From Elusimicrobiota bacterium (GTDB lineage Bacteria > CG03 > SLGR01 > PWQF01): a DNA stretch of 5,003 nt. Position 1 is the stretch's first letter; every line of letters starts with the position of its first letter. Under the pieces are notes generated by a model. That model made no database searches. It worked only from the letters and a program-made list of their open reading frames with translations, and was not told the origin of the DNA. The translations under genes were made by a program, and so were the position numbers. The stretch covers positions 1 to 5,003 of the forward strand of contig PWOI01000140.1 of the NCBI GenBank assembly GCA_003557485.1. Direction: 5' to 3'. Below, piece by piece: positions 1 through 5,003 of this stretch.

Positions 1-3000
1 AGGCCGTGCTTGCAGGAGCGGAAAGTAATCTGTATTCAGTGACCGATGTATTAAGAAATATAGCCTTATGGTTGGAAGGGGTAGCAGCCCTCAGTTTTTT
101 CAGGGGGTATAGAACTGCTTTTTCACTAACTCCCGGCGGCAGGTTGGCATCCAAACTTCGTGAGCCTCTTTATGCGGAAGACGAAGAAATGGGAAAAAGG
201 TTTTTAAAGGGAGGGTATCTGCAGGATGGATACGGGGTGCCTTCAGGATCTGCGGTTGACGGGACTCACGCCCTTGAGGGAGAAATGGGATATTATACTC
301 CAGCCGGCAGGGAATCTTTTCTTGAAAATGTAGAGAGGTTTAGGGATTTCTTTGAGGCAAAAGAACGGCAGGGGCGTCCTATAAGGTACATAATAAAATG
401 CGGAATAGGAGGACAGCATACGCCGTTTCAGGGAATATCATCGGTTATGGTCTCGGAAAGAGGAAAGATAGTAGGGGAATATGAACTTGGAAAAGATTTT
501 GAAGCGTCCATAAACCAGACCCTTAAAAATATGGGTGCGGACTGGAGTCAGGTAGCGGTTATTCCGAGTTCAAAATCAGGTTCAACGGATGAGACGATGA
601 TAGTCTTTACAGAAATACTGTATGTGCTGCTTAAAAATATCGCGCAGCTCAAAGGGATAGACGGTGCCGGTTTTGCGGATGCTGTTCTTGATACACTCCA
701 TGACGTAAACTTCAGAGATGGAAAAGAGATTTCGGCTGAAGACCTTTTTAAAGATTTCAGTATAAACGCAGTAGTTCAAAAAGCGCGGGAAATGAACATA
801 AACGTTGACTCTGGGACTGCGATGGAAATATTTGCCGTAGTGCTTGGTAATATGTTTTTTGAAACTACGGACAATCCTGTCGAGAGCCGCCTGGCCGCTT
901 TCATAAGAAATTCCGGACTCGACAGGGAACTGGGAGACAGTTCGCCCGGTTTCGGTGCGATGTTTGACAATGTGGGGGGAAGGTGGACAGCAGATCTTCA
1001 TATGATGACTTTTCTTGCTTTTCACAATCTTGACGCGGAGCAGTATTATGAAGCCCGGAAAAAGGGAGTAGGGAAGGCAGCTGAAGGGATGCATCCGGGT
1101 AATTCGCTCGGCAGGATGATTGCCGGAAAAGGAGTTGCCGATGTGGCTTTGGTTGTTCCGGATAGCATGTACTGGTTCGGGAAATCAATAGAACAGAATT
1201 TCAACGAGAGTATATGGCAGGACGGATTCGCAACACTTATAGCAGTCAAGGAAAGCGACTGGCCGTCCCAGAGGGGTCATTACGAACGCAGAGCCGGAAG
1301 GCTTGTTATTAATTTATCAGATGCAGAAATAAGTGGAAGAAATTTTACAGTTGTTAATCCCGGTGTTGAAATTAAGACTGATAGTGCATCAACCCTTCAG
1401 GAAAAAGCAATTATGTTCGCCGAACTCAACACCTATTTTTATGCGGCAACCAACACAGTAGGAACAATCCTGATAGCCAGGGCGCTTGAGAAGGAGGGGT
1501 TTTCTGTGGAAGATGTTGATATGAGCGACCTAAATAATCCTGCAACAAAAATTGTTCAGAGAAACCTGTTTCTGAGACAGCCTTATGTTGAACTGGGGAA
1601 AGGAATACTTAAAGAAAGACTGGAGCATCTGCAGTCCGATGAAGCCAGAGCAAAGGGTTCAATACAAAGAGAAATTGAGAAAATTGCGCAGTCAGGAAGA
1701 AATAAGCCTGTTGTTGCAAATATTCCGGGAGTTACGGAAACAAATTTAACCGGTGAAAATATAGCCGGAGTTGTAAATCAGGTAAAAGATTACGCCGAAG
1801 CCGGAGGCCGCAAAATAATACCGTTTATATATCTTGAAGGTGAGAATTTTGAAATGGTCAGGGATTCACTGCTGTCTTCCGGTGTTGAATGGGTAATGCA
1901 GGGAACAGGCGACCAGCATATAAGTTATCAGCAGGTTCTCGCTCAACCCGGTAAGTTTCTTCCCGTTATTGTTTCGTTTGTGCCCTCCTCAGAACAGGAA
2001 TTTGCTCCCGCCCGGCCTGCCGTGGGTTTTGCAAAAGGATACCTTAATGATATAAGTCCGCATATGCTGCGCCATTACTTTGCTGAAGCATCGTACGAGG
2101 CGCTTACCAGTCTTCGCGGTGAAGCCGGAGGCGAGGGCGTTTTCCTGACTCTTTCCGATACTCCCGAAAACCGTGATTTAGTTATACGGGAATTGTCGGT
2201 GTATGCTTCCGCTGTAAGTAAATCCGGGGTGCCGGGATACTCGGATAAAAGATACCCGGGAGGTTTTCTATTCGGCCTTGCTGCAGCGGGTGCAGGAGTT
2301 GAAGGTTACTCAGTTTCTTCTGCTGTAGCAATTAGCGCCGCTATGGCGGCTTTCTTAGTGATTTTTCCATTTGCGGTGATTGGATTCTGGACTGCATTCA
2401 GGGTGCTGCGGTACTCATTAAGGCTCTCCGCGGAGCCGGCCGCCGATAAGAAAGAAGCGCCTGGCGAAGTTGATATAGAATTCGGGACATCCGGATGGAG
2501 GGGAAGGATAGGTGTTGATTTTATCCCTGTAAACATAAAGAAGGCTGTCCAGGGAATAGCAACGTATTATAAAAAACATATAAAAGAGGGCTATATCCTT
2601 GTTGTATATGATCCCCGGGAGCATAACAGAGACAACGCAAAAACCGCAGCGGAGGTTCTTGCAGCCAACGGAGTTAAAGTGAAAATTATAGAGTCGGAAC
2701 CAACGCCTTCACCGGTAGCGGGGTTTCTGGCAAACAAAAACGATGAAATAAAAGGGGTGATTAATTTTACCGCGAGCCATAACAAATATACAGATAACGG
2801 CATCAAGTATTCCCTGGGGCACGGAGGAGCCGCCGGTGATGAGGTGACCTCACTTATATCGCAGTACGCTAACGAAAGTTCACCGGCAGTACCTTATGAT
2901 TACAGCGATGGACTGAAGGCAGGGCTGATTGAAGAAATCAAACCGGAAGATGCCGTTCGCGAGTATGTACACAGCTATATTATTCCCCGGTTAAAATCAA

Positions 3001-5003
3001 GTGGAGCCTGGACTGCAATAATTAATTATTTGCAGAACAACCCTGATTTCAAAGTTGTCCTTGATCCGATGCAGGGAACATCAGTAAGTTACATGAAGGA
3101 GTTTTACGGAGAGCTTGAAAGAGAAAGCGGAGTCTCTTTTGCGGAGTATATAAATACCGATAACAATGATCCGTCCTTTAGTAATGTAGCGGGAGCCCCT
3201 AACCCGACAGAGAGTGTCAGTCTAGAAAAACTTAATGAGAGGTTGGGCCGGCTCAGGCAAACCGGCAGAGCGGTGGGTATAGCAGCTGACGGGGACGCAG
3301 ACAGGTTCGGACTTATAGATGTATGCGGCAGTGAAATTACTTCCCACCAGTTTGTCGGGATTCTTGCATATTTTCTGCATAAGAAAGGATTCACCGGTGA
3401 CATAGTTAAGTCAGTAGGGACAAGCAATTTCACAAATGCCGTCGGAGAACTGCTCGGTGTAAGTGTTGAAGAGAAAGCTGTAGGTTTCAAATGGGTCGTT
3501 GAACATAAGGATGCGGGCAATGAAATTCTTGTGGGGGGTGAAGAAAGCGCGCACGTTATGACGGGGCTTTTTTCCGAATCGTGGGATGACGGTATAGCAG
3601 TAGGCATACTTGCGCTGTGGATTATTGCTGACAGTGGAATGAGCCTTACGGAATATCTTGAATCAATTGAAAAGGAAACAGGAAAGTATAACTGTTCACG
3701 CCAAAATGTTGATCTTACCTCTAAGCAGAAATTAGAGGCAGAGTCATTAATAAATGAAACAAGGGATAATTCTCAGGTTGTTAAAGAGAGGCTGCAGGAA
3801 ATGGGGTTCACTAAAGAAGTTGCCGATGTAATAACACTGGACGGTGTAAAAGTAGTATTCTCGGACGGGAGCTGGCTTCTGATACGGCTTTCAGGTACAG
3901 AAGACGTAGCCAGGCTCTATGCCGAAGCAAAAAGTGAGGAGGAGAGGCTTGATATTGAAAAAGCAGGCAAAGAGCTGTTGCTGGGGGAGAAGAAACCGGG
4001 CAGACTTCATTCATTTCTGCAGAACCTGGCTTCACGTGTAAGGTCTCTTTTTATAAGGACTGAAAGAAAAGAAAACTTTGATATTACGGTTTCTTCAGAT
4101 TATGACGGGATGAGCCGGGAAGCCGCTGAACGGCTTATTGAATCAATTAACAGGAAAATTGAAGAGAAGGGAAATGTGTCTATATGTTTTGCTACCGGTT
4201 CTACGCCGCTGGGGGTTTACAAAATACTTAGAGAAAGAGCCGGGGAAATTGACTGGAGCAAGGTTGTAACATTTAACCTTGACGAATACATGTTTCCGGG
4301 TTACAGTGGCGGCCTTGTAGATCATCCCCAAAGCTACAGGTACTTTATGGAGAAAAACCTGTTTGGTGAACTGTACGGCTACGGGCTTAGGAGAGAGAAT
4401 ATAAATTTTCTTGACGGCAGCGCTGTTGACACAGATAAAGAGATAGAGCGCTACAAAAAAGCTATATCCGATGCCGGTGGCATAGACATAGCCATACTCG
4501 GGATAGGCCATAACGGGCATATAGCTTTTAACGAGCCGGGCAGTTCTTTTTCCGGTAGCGTCCGCGTTACCGATCTTGACGATAGAACAATAGAAGCGAA
4601 TGCGAGATTTTTTGATAGGGCCGAAGATGTGCCGAGGCAGGCGCTGAGTATGGGTATATCGGATATACTTAACTCGGGGCAGGTGTTTCTTCTTGCAAGC
4701 GGAGAAGGCAAGGCTGAAGCTATCTACAACACCGTGGCAGGCTCCATAAGCGAAGATATACCTTCTACTGCGCTGCAAAATCATCCGGATGTCAGGATGT
4801 TTCTTGATAAGGACCTGGAGGTGGGAGTGCTTGAGAGGATGAGGGTTTTTCTGGAGGGTTACACGGATTTTGAAACAAGGATAAGCAGTTGGGATGCGAC
4901 CTTGATGGTCCAGTATGAAGATATATACGGAATTGCAAATATTGAAACGGACAGCCAAACTGGCAAAGAAGTGTTTTACGTGCATGAATCTGTTCTTTGG
5001 TCA
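1..5003 (+). CDS. Internal part of a giant multi-enzyme fusion protein (PGI - hydrophobic segment - phosphohexomutase - NagB), open at both ends
   Basis: A single frame (first full codon at base 3) runs through the window with no stop, giving 1667 residues with neither start nor stop present. Domains in order are: unknown 1-84; phosphoglucose isomerase-like about 85-755; hydrophobic segment 774-799; alpha-D-phosphohexomutase about 824-1326; basic linker 1327-1357; glucosamine-6-phosphate deaminase about 1358-1617; unknown tail 1618-1667. Family motifs stay in frame in every domain, which rules out chance openness. No ATG lies at the expected start of the mutase or deaminase domain: the nearest in-frame ATG codons are at 2343, inside the hydrophobic segment, and at 4110, already inside the deaminase. 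The domains therefore look fused rather than being separate overlapping genes. The enzymes share hexose-6-phosphates as substrates or products. Free-standing PGI, mutase and NagB are typically about 450-550, 450-580 and 240-270 residues, so at least three normal genes are represented. The overall product is a prediction; domain identities are well supported. Confidence 0.95.
3..254 (+). other. Unrecognised N-terminal stretch of the visible chain, before the isomerase domain
   Basis: Residues 1-84 are in frame with the rest of the fusion but match no family that I recognise. The stretch contains a moderately hydrophobic, amphipathic-looking run around residues 20-42 with two tryptophan/phenylalanine-rich patches. 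It is interrupted by charged residues (E25, R34, R37), so I do not call it a membrane helix. A charged segment follows (E59-E62, K65, R66), then a glycine-rich run at 70-87. It may be the end of a preceding domain or an N-terminal extension of the isomerase. The left edge of the window cuts it, so its true beginning is unseen. Confidence 0.5.
255..2267 (+). other. pgi: Phosphoglucose isomerase-like domain, resembling the PGI half of transaldolase-PGI fusions
   Basis: PGI interconverts glucose-6-phosphate and fructose-6-phosphate in the cytoplasm. The visible motifs are a GIGG loop at 134-137 and a phosphate-binding loop SKSGST at 190-195, followed by DET. The GGR signature is at 325-327 (R327 matches the active-site Arg of animal PGI). 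Q398 and E402 sit in a QNFNES motif and match rabbit Q353 and the base E357. Q526 and K533 sit in QPYVELGK and match Q511 and K518. H639 in GTGDQHISYQ closely matches the rabbit GTNGQHAFYQ motif that carries H388. The His motif lies after the Lys motif instead of before it. The E402-K533 spacing (131 residues) is shorter than in rabbit (161), and as I recall both traits resemble the PGI part of bacterial transaldolase-PGI fusions. The usual GIGGS serine is Q138 here. At about 670 residues the domain is longer than usual, and its right boundary (720-755 is unassigned) is uncertain. Confidence 0.85.
2322..2399 (+). other. Predicted membrane-embedded hydrophobic segment between the isomerase and mutase domains
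   Basis: Residues 774-799 are an uninterrupted run of Ala, Ile, Val, Leu, Phe and Gly with one central proline (P789), one tryptophan (W796) and no charged residue. The run is long enough to cross a bilayer. Arginines follow directly at R800, R803 and R807, which under the positive-inside rule places the mutase/deaminase side in the cytoplasm. A weaker hydrophobic run at 753-766, preceded by K749 and R750, could pair with it as a hairpin or re-entrant loop and keep the isomerase on the same side. An in-frame ATG at 2343 falls inside the segment and is not a plausible domain start. The membrane assignment is read from composition only. Confidence 0.65.
2472..3980 (+). other. Alpha-D-phosphohexomutase domain (phosphoglucomutase/phosphomannomutase family)
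   Basis: The family moves phosphate between C6 and C1 of hexoses through a phosphoserine intermediate and a bisphosphate. All four hallmark loops are present in the normal order. FGTSGWRG at 827-834 opens the domain. The catalytic loop TASHN at 923-927 carries S925 as the phosphoryl-carrying serine and is followed by DNGIKY. The metal loop DGDADR at 1096-1101 has D1096, D1098 and D1100 as Mg2+ ligands. The sugar-recognition loop is GEESAH at 1179-1184, and the phosphate-binding loop RLSGTE at 1295-1300 is followed by R1304, Y1306 and E1308. At about 500 residues the length is normal. K928 replaces the common proline of TASHNP, and D1301 replaces the proline of SGTEP. The GWRG start and GEES loop favour phosphoglucomutase over GlmM, but glucosamine or mannose phosphates cannot be excluded. 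Fusion to PGI and NagB fits work on glucose-6- or glucosamine-6-phosphate. Confidence 0.93.
3981..4073 (+). other. Basic amphipathic linker between the mutase and deaminase domains
   Basis: Residues 1327-1357 separate the end of the mutase fold from the first strand of the deaminase. The stretch is rich in Lys and Arg (KK near its start, then several Arg and a terminal RKE). Within about 1335-1350, Leu, Phe, Val and Ile recur every three to four residues, as expected for an amphipathic helix. It could be a simple spacer helix or a surface-binding element that lies on a membrane; the sequence does not decide between them. It contains no ATG, so it does not hide a separate translation start for the deaminase. 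Confidence 0.5.
4074..4853 (+). other. nagB: Glucosamine-6-phosphate deaminase (NagB) domain, Bacillus-like type
   Basis: NagB converts glucosamine-6-phosphate to fructose-6-phosphate plus ammonia, the last step of amino-sugar catabolism. The domain starts with the strand FDITV at 1359-1363, where free NagB would begin with its initiator Met. Motifs follow in the family order. FATGSTPLG at 1396-1404 is the phosphate loop. FNLDEY at 1424-1429 carries D1427, equivalent to E. coli D72, which does the initial proton transfer. GIGHNGHIAFNEP at 1500-1512 carries H1506 and E1511, equivalent to H143 and E148 of the ring-opening apparatus. ANARFF comes next, then a QALSMGISDIL region, and ISEDIP...ALQNHPDV ends at about 1597. 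N1504 occupies the E. coli D141 position; Asn there is, to my knowledge, usual in Bacillus-type NagB, which this domain resembles elsewhere too. The length of about 260 residues is normal. A 6-phosphogluconolactonase (same superfamily) is excluded by the NEP and DEY motifs. Confidence 0.95.
4854..5003 (+). other. Unrecognised continuation after the NagB domain, cut by the window edge
   Basis: Residues 1618-1667 continue the same frame past the normal C-terminal end of NagB with no stop. The stretch is acidic and aromatic (several Tyr, two Trp) and I cannot assign it to a family from 50 residues. It may be a linker plus the beginning of a fourth domain. Its presence shows that the fusion extends beyond the deaminase. 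Confidence 0.55.

Follow-up and report, generated by a model that had tools for sequence, protein, structure and literature searches.

RESULTS

A Single Stop-Free Frame With Chained Enzyme Domains

The stretch of DNA analysed here, referred to as the window, comprises 5,003 bases and makes up all of contig C158 in its own draft genome (G000; 2.07 Mb, 212 contigs, 87% complete). As had been noted from the letters alone, the window is free of stop codons throughout, with an ORF scan delineating one plus strand frame of 1,667 codons that contains neither start nor stop (Table 1). Because the window is the entire contig, both open ends of this frame are contig ends. The chance of the frame staying open, as calculated from base composition, is ~1e-46. 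Moreover, changes relative to related sequences are in excess at third codon positions (0.62 vs. 0.25-0.29), and such a codon-position signature of selection is present in both main enzyme regions. The possibility of separate genes with internal starts was rejected, given that neither phosphoglucomutase (PGM) nor glucosamine-6-phosphate deaminase (NagB) has, where its domain begins in the window, a start codon accompanied by a ribosome-binding site. ORFs on the minus strand (200-285 aa) were taken to be shadows of the coding strand.

Table 1. Features of the window and of its continuation on contig C182 (positions are those of the window unless C182 is given).
Feature	Position	Strand	Basis
Giant ORF interior, 1,667 codons, no start or stop	3..5003	+	ORF scan; third-position excess
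N-terminal stretch before first enzyme, linker or end of upstream segment	3..182	+	no family match
Divergent glucose-6-phosphate isomerase-like region (aa ~61-750)	183..2250	+	NCBIfam, fold match, motifs
SIS loop GIGGQ, isomerase-like region	402-428	+	motif
Phosphate loop SSKSGST, isomerase-like region	567-599	+	motif
VGGRW Arg, isomerase-like region	972-986	+	motif
FNES Glu, isomerase-like region	1200-1211	+	motif
VELGK Lys, isomerase-like region	1587-1601	+	motif
GTGDQH His, isomerase-like region	1902-1919	+	motif
Hydrophobic, probably membrane-inserted segment between isomerase-like region and PGM (aa 775-793)	2325..2381	+	hydropathy scan
Phosphoglucomutase/alpha-D-phosphohexomutase, complete, domains I-IV	2460..3965	+	Pfam 2e-28 and further domains; PDB phmmer
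TASHN, catalytic Ser loop of PGM	2769-2783	+	motif in place
DGDADRFG, metal loop of PGM	3288-3311	+	motif in place
GGEES, sugar loop of PGM	3534-3548	+	motif in place
RLSGTED, phosphate loop of PGM	3885-3905	+	motif in place
Glucosamine-6-phosphate deaminase (NagB), complete	4083..4814	+	Pfam, NCBIfam, PDB
NLDEY, NagB motif	4275-4289	+	aligned with 2ri0
GIGHNGHIAFNEPG, NagB motif	4500-4541	+	aligned with 2ri0
Repeated module, first half (aa ~1583-1667), profile match overlapping NagB end	4749..5003	+	profile 1.9e-21
Repeated module, second half with HEINE...H	C182 2-211		profile 8e-17; 13-nt in-frame overlap

Three complete-looking enzymes had originally been recognized in the window. For the second and third of these, PGM and NagB, the assignments are clear and the domains complete. 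The Pfam domains I-IV of PGM span aa 825-1315 of the window frame and, at 99, 47, 61, and 41 bits, each exceed the respective gathering score (22.5, 29.3, 20.7, and 23.1), while a phmmer comparison to phosphoglucomutases of solved structure in the PDB yielded 7.8e-33. NagB extends over aa 1361-1604, with the portion matched by Pfam (aa 1367-1593) scoring 80.6 bits against PF01182, for which the gathering score is 27 (E 1.9e-22). The match to the NCBIfam nagB model (9.9e-65) falls below the equivalog cut-off (218.4 vs. 236.9), whereas comparison to a solved deaminase, PDB 2ri0, gave 4.5e-49. The window copy is the only NagB found in the G000 assembly. That genome also contains a standalone glucose-6-phosphate isomerase (PGI) and two other PGM-family proteins, such that the copies in the giant frame are not demonstrably needed.

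The first enzyme is better described as PGI-like than as PGI. The region concerned gave no match to PF00342, the Pfam PGI family, at E up to 1, and scored weakly against the NCBIfam glucose-6-phosphate isomerase model (2.8e-5). A PDB sequence search yielded nothing useful, and profile comparison to the standalone PGIs of the order offered no support (3.5% probability). When the structure of the region was predicted from two sequences, the resulting low-confidence model (pLDDT 53.8) found solely PGIs and related isomerases as its top matches, with 7o0a being the best (Foldseek E 6e-4; VIA Z 13.3, 301 aligned residues). A related genome, G002, contains a frame of 4,708 codons, one domain of which shares 56-58% identity with the region. 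In both, the Lys motif comes first and the His motif second, whereas the order's standalone PGIs show the reverse; a similar His-after-Lys order is known from bifunctional transaldolase/PGI proteins. In summary, the region presents PGI-type SIS loops and Arg, Glu, Lys, and His motifs, along with a tentative fold match from the low-confidence model, yet differs from the PGI family in its length of ~700 residues, in its lack of a Pfam match, and in the position of the His motif behind the Lys motif.

Outside the enzymes, residues 1-60 of the window found no family match in Pfam or NCBIfam. Hydropathy scanning alone identified one strong hydrophobic segment (aa 775-793; mean hydropathy 2.56 over 19 residues), as well as one within the PGM fold.

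The Frame Continues Into a Second Contig of the Same Genome

The last 13 bases of the window are identical to the first 13 bases of contig C182, in frame. Joining C158 and C182 restores a complete copy of a module seen repeatedly in giant frames, with the window providing module positions up to 106 and C182 those from 104 onward. Once joined, the frame runs to about 3,048 codons or more (some 9.1 kb as a minimum), bearing out the earlier statement that the true protein is longer than the window. The same description considered both ends of the window to be parts of further segments. While this holds for residues 1618-1667, which belong to the half module, residues 1-84 are different in kind, probably corresponding to an unplaced linker or else to the end of an upstream segment.

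Extension of the frame in search of its start and stop codons was successful at the 3' side, where C182 (a frame of 1,385 codons, both ends open) could be added; the joined frame is, however, open at both ends. No upstream contig was found, with a search of G000 using the first 15 bases of the window returning the window itself as sole match. Other module-bearing giant frames in G000 lie on C169 (5,315 codons, two module copies) and C119 (2,293 codons, both ends open). A stop of this class of genes is found on C169 and a gene start on C144. Were the parts on C144, the window, and C169 to belong to one gene, that gene would comprise at least about 11,670 codons. Contig joins linking the three were not found, and the tie of the window to the start on C144 is a guess, since no fetched contig overlaps the 5' end of the window.

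The Repeated Module Likely Assumes a Zincin-Like Fold

The AlphaFold model of the repeated module, based on 23 sequences, is of high confidence (pLDDT 94.6). A Foldseek search with this model found no match below E 0.05, and a PDB sequence search gave chance-level matches only. In VIA-align, the best match was selecase (Z 5.4, 3.8 A, 93 residues), followed by Ste24p (4.9), abylysin (4.8), and BlaR1 (4.6), with parts of Hsp90 being mixed among the best rows at similar Z. On the basis of the model, the module likely has a zincin-like fold, resembling overall that of the minigluzincins selecase and abylysin (~90 residues aligned). Unlike the minigluzincins, which contain HExxH, the module presents HExxE and a distant His, and many copies are embedded in giant proteins. 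In place of the classical HExxH zinc motif of zincin metallopeptidases, HExxE and the later His are kept together in 17 of 22 copies, including the split copy of the window. Three of the five exceptions also lack the His, while one further copy reads HExxD.

A profile search at E < 1e-4 detected the module in three of 16 genomes of the phylum, namely, G000, G003, and G005. In public records, it appears in Elusimicrobia bacterium T1Sed10_83R1 (G005) and Candidatus Sumerlaeota bacterium CSSed165cm_109 (G003), with distant copies in two Endomicrobiales records. Attribution of the giant frame to an Omnitrophota-like lineage, as originally proposed, is not supported in that form, given that the module-bearing relatives are titled Elusimicrobia, Candidatus Sumerlaeota, and Endomicrobiales. 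No published description of the module was found in the open literature.

Because the modules sit between the enzyme segments of giant frames, they could be imagined as peptidases that cut the chain between enzymes, in which case the giant would be a self-processing metabolic polyprotein. Such placement speaks for this idea, as do the high-confidence model, the presence of selecase, abylysin, and M48/BlaR1-type peptidases among the best structural matches, and the joint retention or, in three copies, joint absence of HExxE and the downstream His. Nonetheless, with Z scores that are modest (5.4 and below), HExxE in place of the classical HExxH, and several copies lacking the motif, self-processing appears improbable.

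Gene Starts Share an N-Terminal Domain

A domain of ~400 residues is common to the giant gene starts of G000, G003, G005, G002, and Endomicrobiales genomes. In G000, G005, and G041, a distant relative from the Endomicrobiales, signal-peptide-like leaders lie ahead of this domain. The hydrophobic leader found on C144 of G000, MKFASSIYTKIICWVITAGMVFTSVINDYAYA, is read as a signal peptide, which suggests that the first domain, at least, is exported. The gene start on C144 (2-3049, minus strand) comprises the leader, the domain with its IKDLH and GGFHSDG motifs, a hydrophobic segment, and a further domain. On contig C136 of G005, one giant gene ends and another gene start lies behind it. A PDB sequence search with the N-terminal domain returned chance-level matches only; a TIKI/ChaN-type likeness was considered on the strength of motifs alone.

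The leaders and the conserved, exported-looking N-terminal domain raise the question of whether the giant is exported to act at the surface or in attack, a role proposed for such proteins in Omnitrophota, while being anchored in the membrane and having its enzymes exposed at the exterior or delivered into the cell of a partner or prey. Hydrophobic segments throughout the giants (by hydropathy alone, about one per 1,000 residues in most frames and none in some) and the sugar-active GH94, GH130, and amylase domains of some giants would fit such a role, and giant ORFs have been published as adhesins or predation proteins (PMC10066038; PMC12057145). At the same time, the PPDK, PEPCK, SecA, topoisomerase, and helicase domains encoded in giants need ATP, GTP, NAD, or nucleic acids, all of which are in short supply outside cells; in addition, the sole PEPCK detected in G003 sits in a giant, and adhesin-type repeats were not matched. 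Export of the enzymes thus strikes us as unlikely, although it ranks as the foremost alternative.

Giant Genes of the Same Class Occur in Related Genomes

The PGM of the window was also found in fully open giant contigs of two sister-family genomes, G003 and G005. These PGMs, respectively 56 and 57% identical to that of the window, form a single clade with it (support 100/100) apart from the standalone PGMs of the order, and are considered orthologous to it. The exact isomerase-PGM-NagB chain was seen in the window only. Relatives with separate genes had been named as an arrangement that would speak against the fusion, and here the outcome is mixed. PGM, PGI, NagB, and PEPCK do occur as standalone genes, yet these are different genes, and the orthologues of the window PGM reside in giant frames in both genomes.

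Giant frames in the order contain PEPCK, GAPDH-like, PPDK, FBPase, glutamate dehydrogenase, MTTB, glycogen synthase, phosphorylase, oligopeptidase M3, SecA, and other domains. Those of G002 include GH94, topoisomerase IB, gyrase-type propeller, and SNF2 helicase domains. On C42 of G002 (35886-65678), a 9,931-codon frame presents the shared N-terminal domain before topoisomerase IB and helix-hairpin-helix, gyrase A C-terminal propeller, and SNF2/helicase domains, while on C25 two giant frames adjoin each other, reaching 11,860 and 13,409 codons or more, the first with GH94 and glycosyltransferase domains. In G003, a SecA-like domain lies within a 6,000-codon giant frame (C226, L052, 12796-13995); this genome also encodes a standalone SecA of 953 aa. 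Fusions of metabolic enzymes of this type are, to our knowledge, rare in bacteria at large, as had been pointed out, yet are recurrent inside this lineage.

In G041, a closed gene of this class, comprising 11,814 codons and including the shared N-terminal domain, is found on a 200-kb contig. Within positions 1-80000 of contig C28 of G041, three giant genes stand in tandem on one strand, the first of at least 5,939 codons and the next two, of 11,814 and 7,229 codons, closed. As compared to the 20-kb criterion of the Omnitrophota type, genes of the same class in G002 and G041 reach about 30-36 kb, with the gene of the window measuring at least about 9.1 kb. An assembly or base-calling artefact fusing neighbouring genes might be suspected from the window being a short contig of a 212-contig draft. 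For the class, this is refuted by the closed 11,814-codon gene and by independent assemblies of samples from elsewhere, in which giants of the same kind contain orthologous PGM and modules. Taken with the signs of selection at codon positions in the two main enzyme regions, an artefact deserves almost no credence.

The giant genes also bear traces of duplication. A 3.4-kb block of 78% identical DNA is common to two giant frames of G003 (L045, 3220-6631; L034/C163, 2247-5676), which we interpret as block shuffling between giants. On C7 and C68 of G005, internal duplications and repeated hydrophobic segments flank PGM on both sides, with a lone remnant of PGM domain IV preceding the module on C7. 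A giant frame on C142 of G005 (about 4200-5672) includes two MraZ-like stretches and an internal repeat of 75% identity, with relaxed dN/dS of 0.59. It could be argued that fusions and duplications neutrally swallowed enzyme genes, the products of which are largely non-functional ballast, in agreement with such block duplications, with degenerate module copies, and with fragments such as the PGM domain IV remnant or the C-terminal part of GAPDH in a giant frame of G003 (C163). Neutral accretion is, however, difficult to reconcile with frames open over tens of kilobases, with intact catalytic motifs in the window, or with a dN/dS of 0.19 over the 1,132 codons of the duplicated giant-gene blocks of G003, a value that points to purifying selection, directly so for G003. 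Furthermore, although incomplete, the G003 PEPCK part alone passes the NCBIfam equivalog cut-off (508 vs. 504). Ballast is as such held to be very improbable.

Some enzymes were found in giants only. In G003, PEPCK was detected solely in a giant frame, split over C163 and C93, whereas G001, G002, and G004 contain a free gene. C93 of G003 overlaps C24 by 105 identical bases, allowing C163, C93, and C24 to be ordered. In G002 (94% complete), no standalone PGI was detectable by Pfam, yet a giant-borne PGI-like domain is present. Because the drafts are 87-94% complete, the absences of free PEPCK in G003, PGI in G002, and NagB in G000 are suggestive only.

DISCUSSION

A Proposed Membrane-Associated Enzyme Chain

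The open frame, the catalytic motifs of its two clear enzymes, the module that continues into C182, and the giants of relatives show the window to be the interior of a real giant gene with chained sugar-phosphate enzymes. We consider it reasonably probable, if far from certain, that the product is a functional, membrane-associated multi-enzyme protein. This reading is ranked ahead of an exported interaction protein and, thirdly, a self-processing polyprotein. The giant would begin with a signal peptide and the shared N-terminal domain, as on C144, and would be anchored in the cell membrane, holding the enzyme chain as one assembly mostly at the cytoplasmic side. Along the chain, sugar-phosphate enzymes would be separated by hydrophobic segments and repeated minimal zincin-like modules, the latter serving as conserved spacers or metal sites or, possibly, as processing enzymes. 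Linked in this manner, the enzymes may act as a tethered metabolic unit. In the window, the route could lead from glucosamine-6-P to fructose-6-P, glucose-6-P, and glucose-1-P, towards glycogen and surface sugars; this pathway is deduced from what the three enzymes are established to catalyse, with their order coming from one genome.

A broader version of the polyprotein idea holds that part of central carbon metabolism is made as self-processing, giant, membrane-anchored polyproteins, with some enzymes (PEPCK in G003, PGI in G002, and NagB in G000) residing in giants only and perhaps being cut out by the HExxE...H modules. This we likewise deem improbable. In either form, the HExxE...H site makes bacterial polyprotein processing directly testable.

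So far, giants of this type have been interpreted as proteins for adhesion or predation in which few domains can be recognized. The presence of complete central-metabolism enzymes, which show signs of purifying selection and in some cases are apparently the sole copy found, lends them testable biochemical content, while the repeated module offers a handle for finding the class. A warning is also in order, in that a fragmented draft may split enzymes of this kind or cause them to be overlooked.

Comparison With Known Systems

Several pathway enzymes on one chain are familiar from multifunctional enzymes of the eukaryote type and from megasynthases, examples being AROM, CAD, and fatty-acid and polyketide synthases. 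As compared to these, the Pfam scan of the window detected no carrier or synthase domains of NRPS/PKS/FAS megasynthases, zincin-like modules are present, and unrelated pathways are mixed across members of the class. West-Roberts and colleagues, in a 2023 preprint, reportedly described divergent SecA-type domains in giants of this sort, for which the SecA-like domain on C226 of G003 represents a counterpart.

Giant ORFs are already known in Omnitrophota and neighbouring phyla, such that the chains of housekeeping enzymes and the module are apparently the new part. No open-access paper describing chains of central-metabolism or glycolytic enzymes in giant proteins was found; since subscription papers and bioRxiv preprints were mostly outside the scope of the literature search, priority is not established.

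The large exported protein of Ca. Menyafoubacter (Auribacterota), with its carbohydrate-binding and lyase domains, toxin-like structures, and no membrane helix (PMC12057145), has a length of about 6,000 aa, a signal peptide, and soda-lake relatives in common with the class considered here; unlike in this class, a metabolic enzyme chain was not reported. The giant ORFs of Omnitrophota, described as poorly annotated or as related to adhesion or carbohydrates (Seymour et al., 2023; PMC10066038), resemble the class of the window in being long single frames from uncultivated bacteria, with scattered membrane segments, few annotated domains, and poorly understood roles, as does the 39,678-aa protein of Ca. 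Velamenicoccus archaeovorus. Whereas the Omnitrophota giants mainly contain adhesion and carbohydrate domains, those considered here chain whole central-metabolism enzymes, have an N-terminal domain in common, and include repeats of the zincin-like module.
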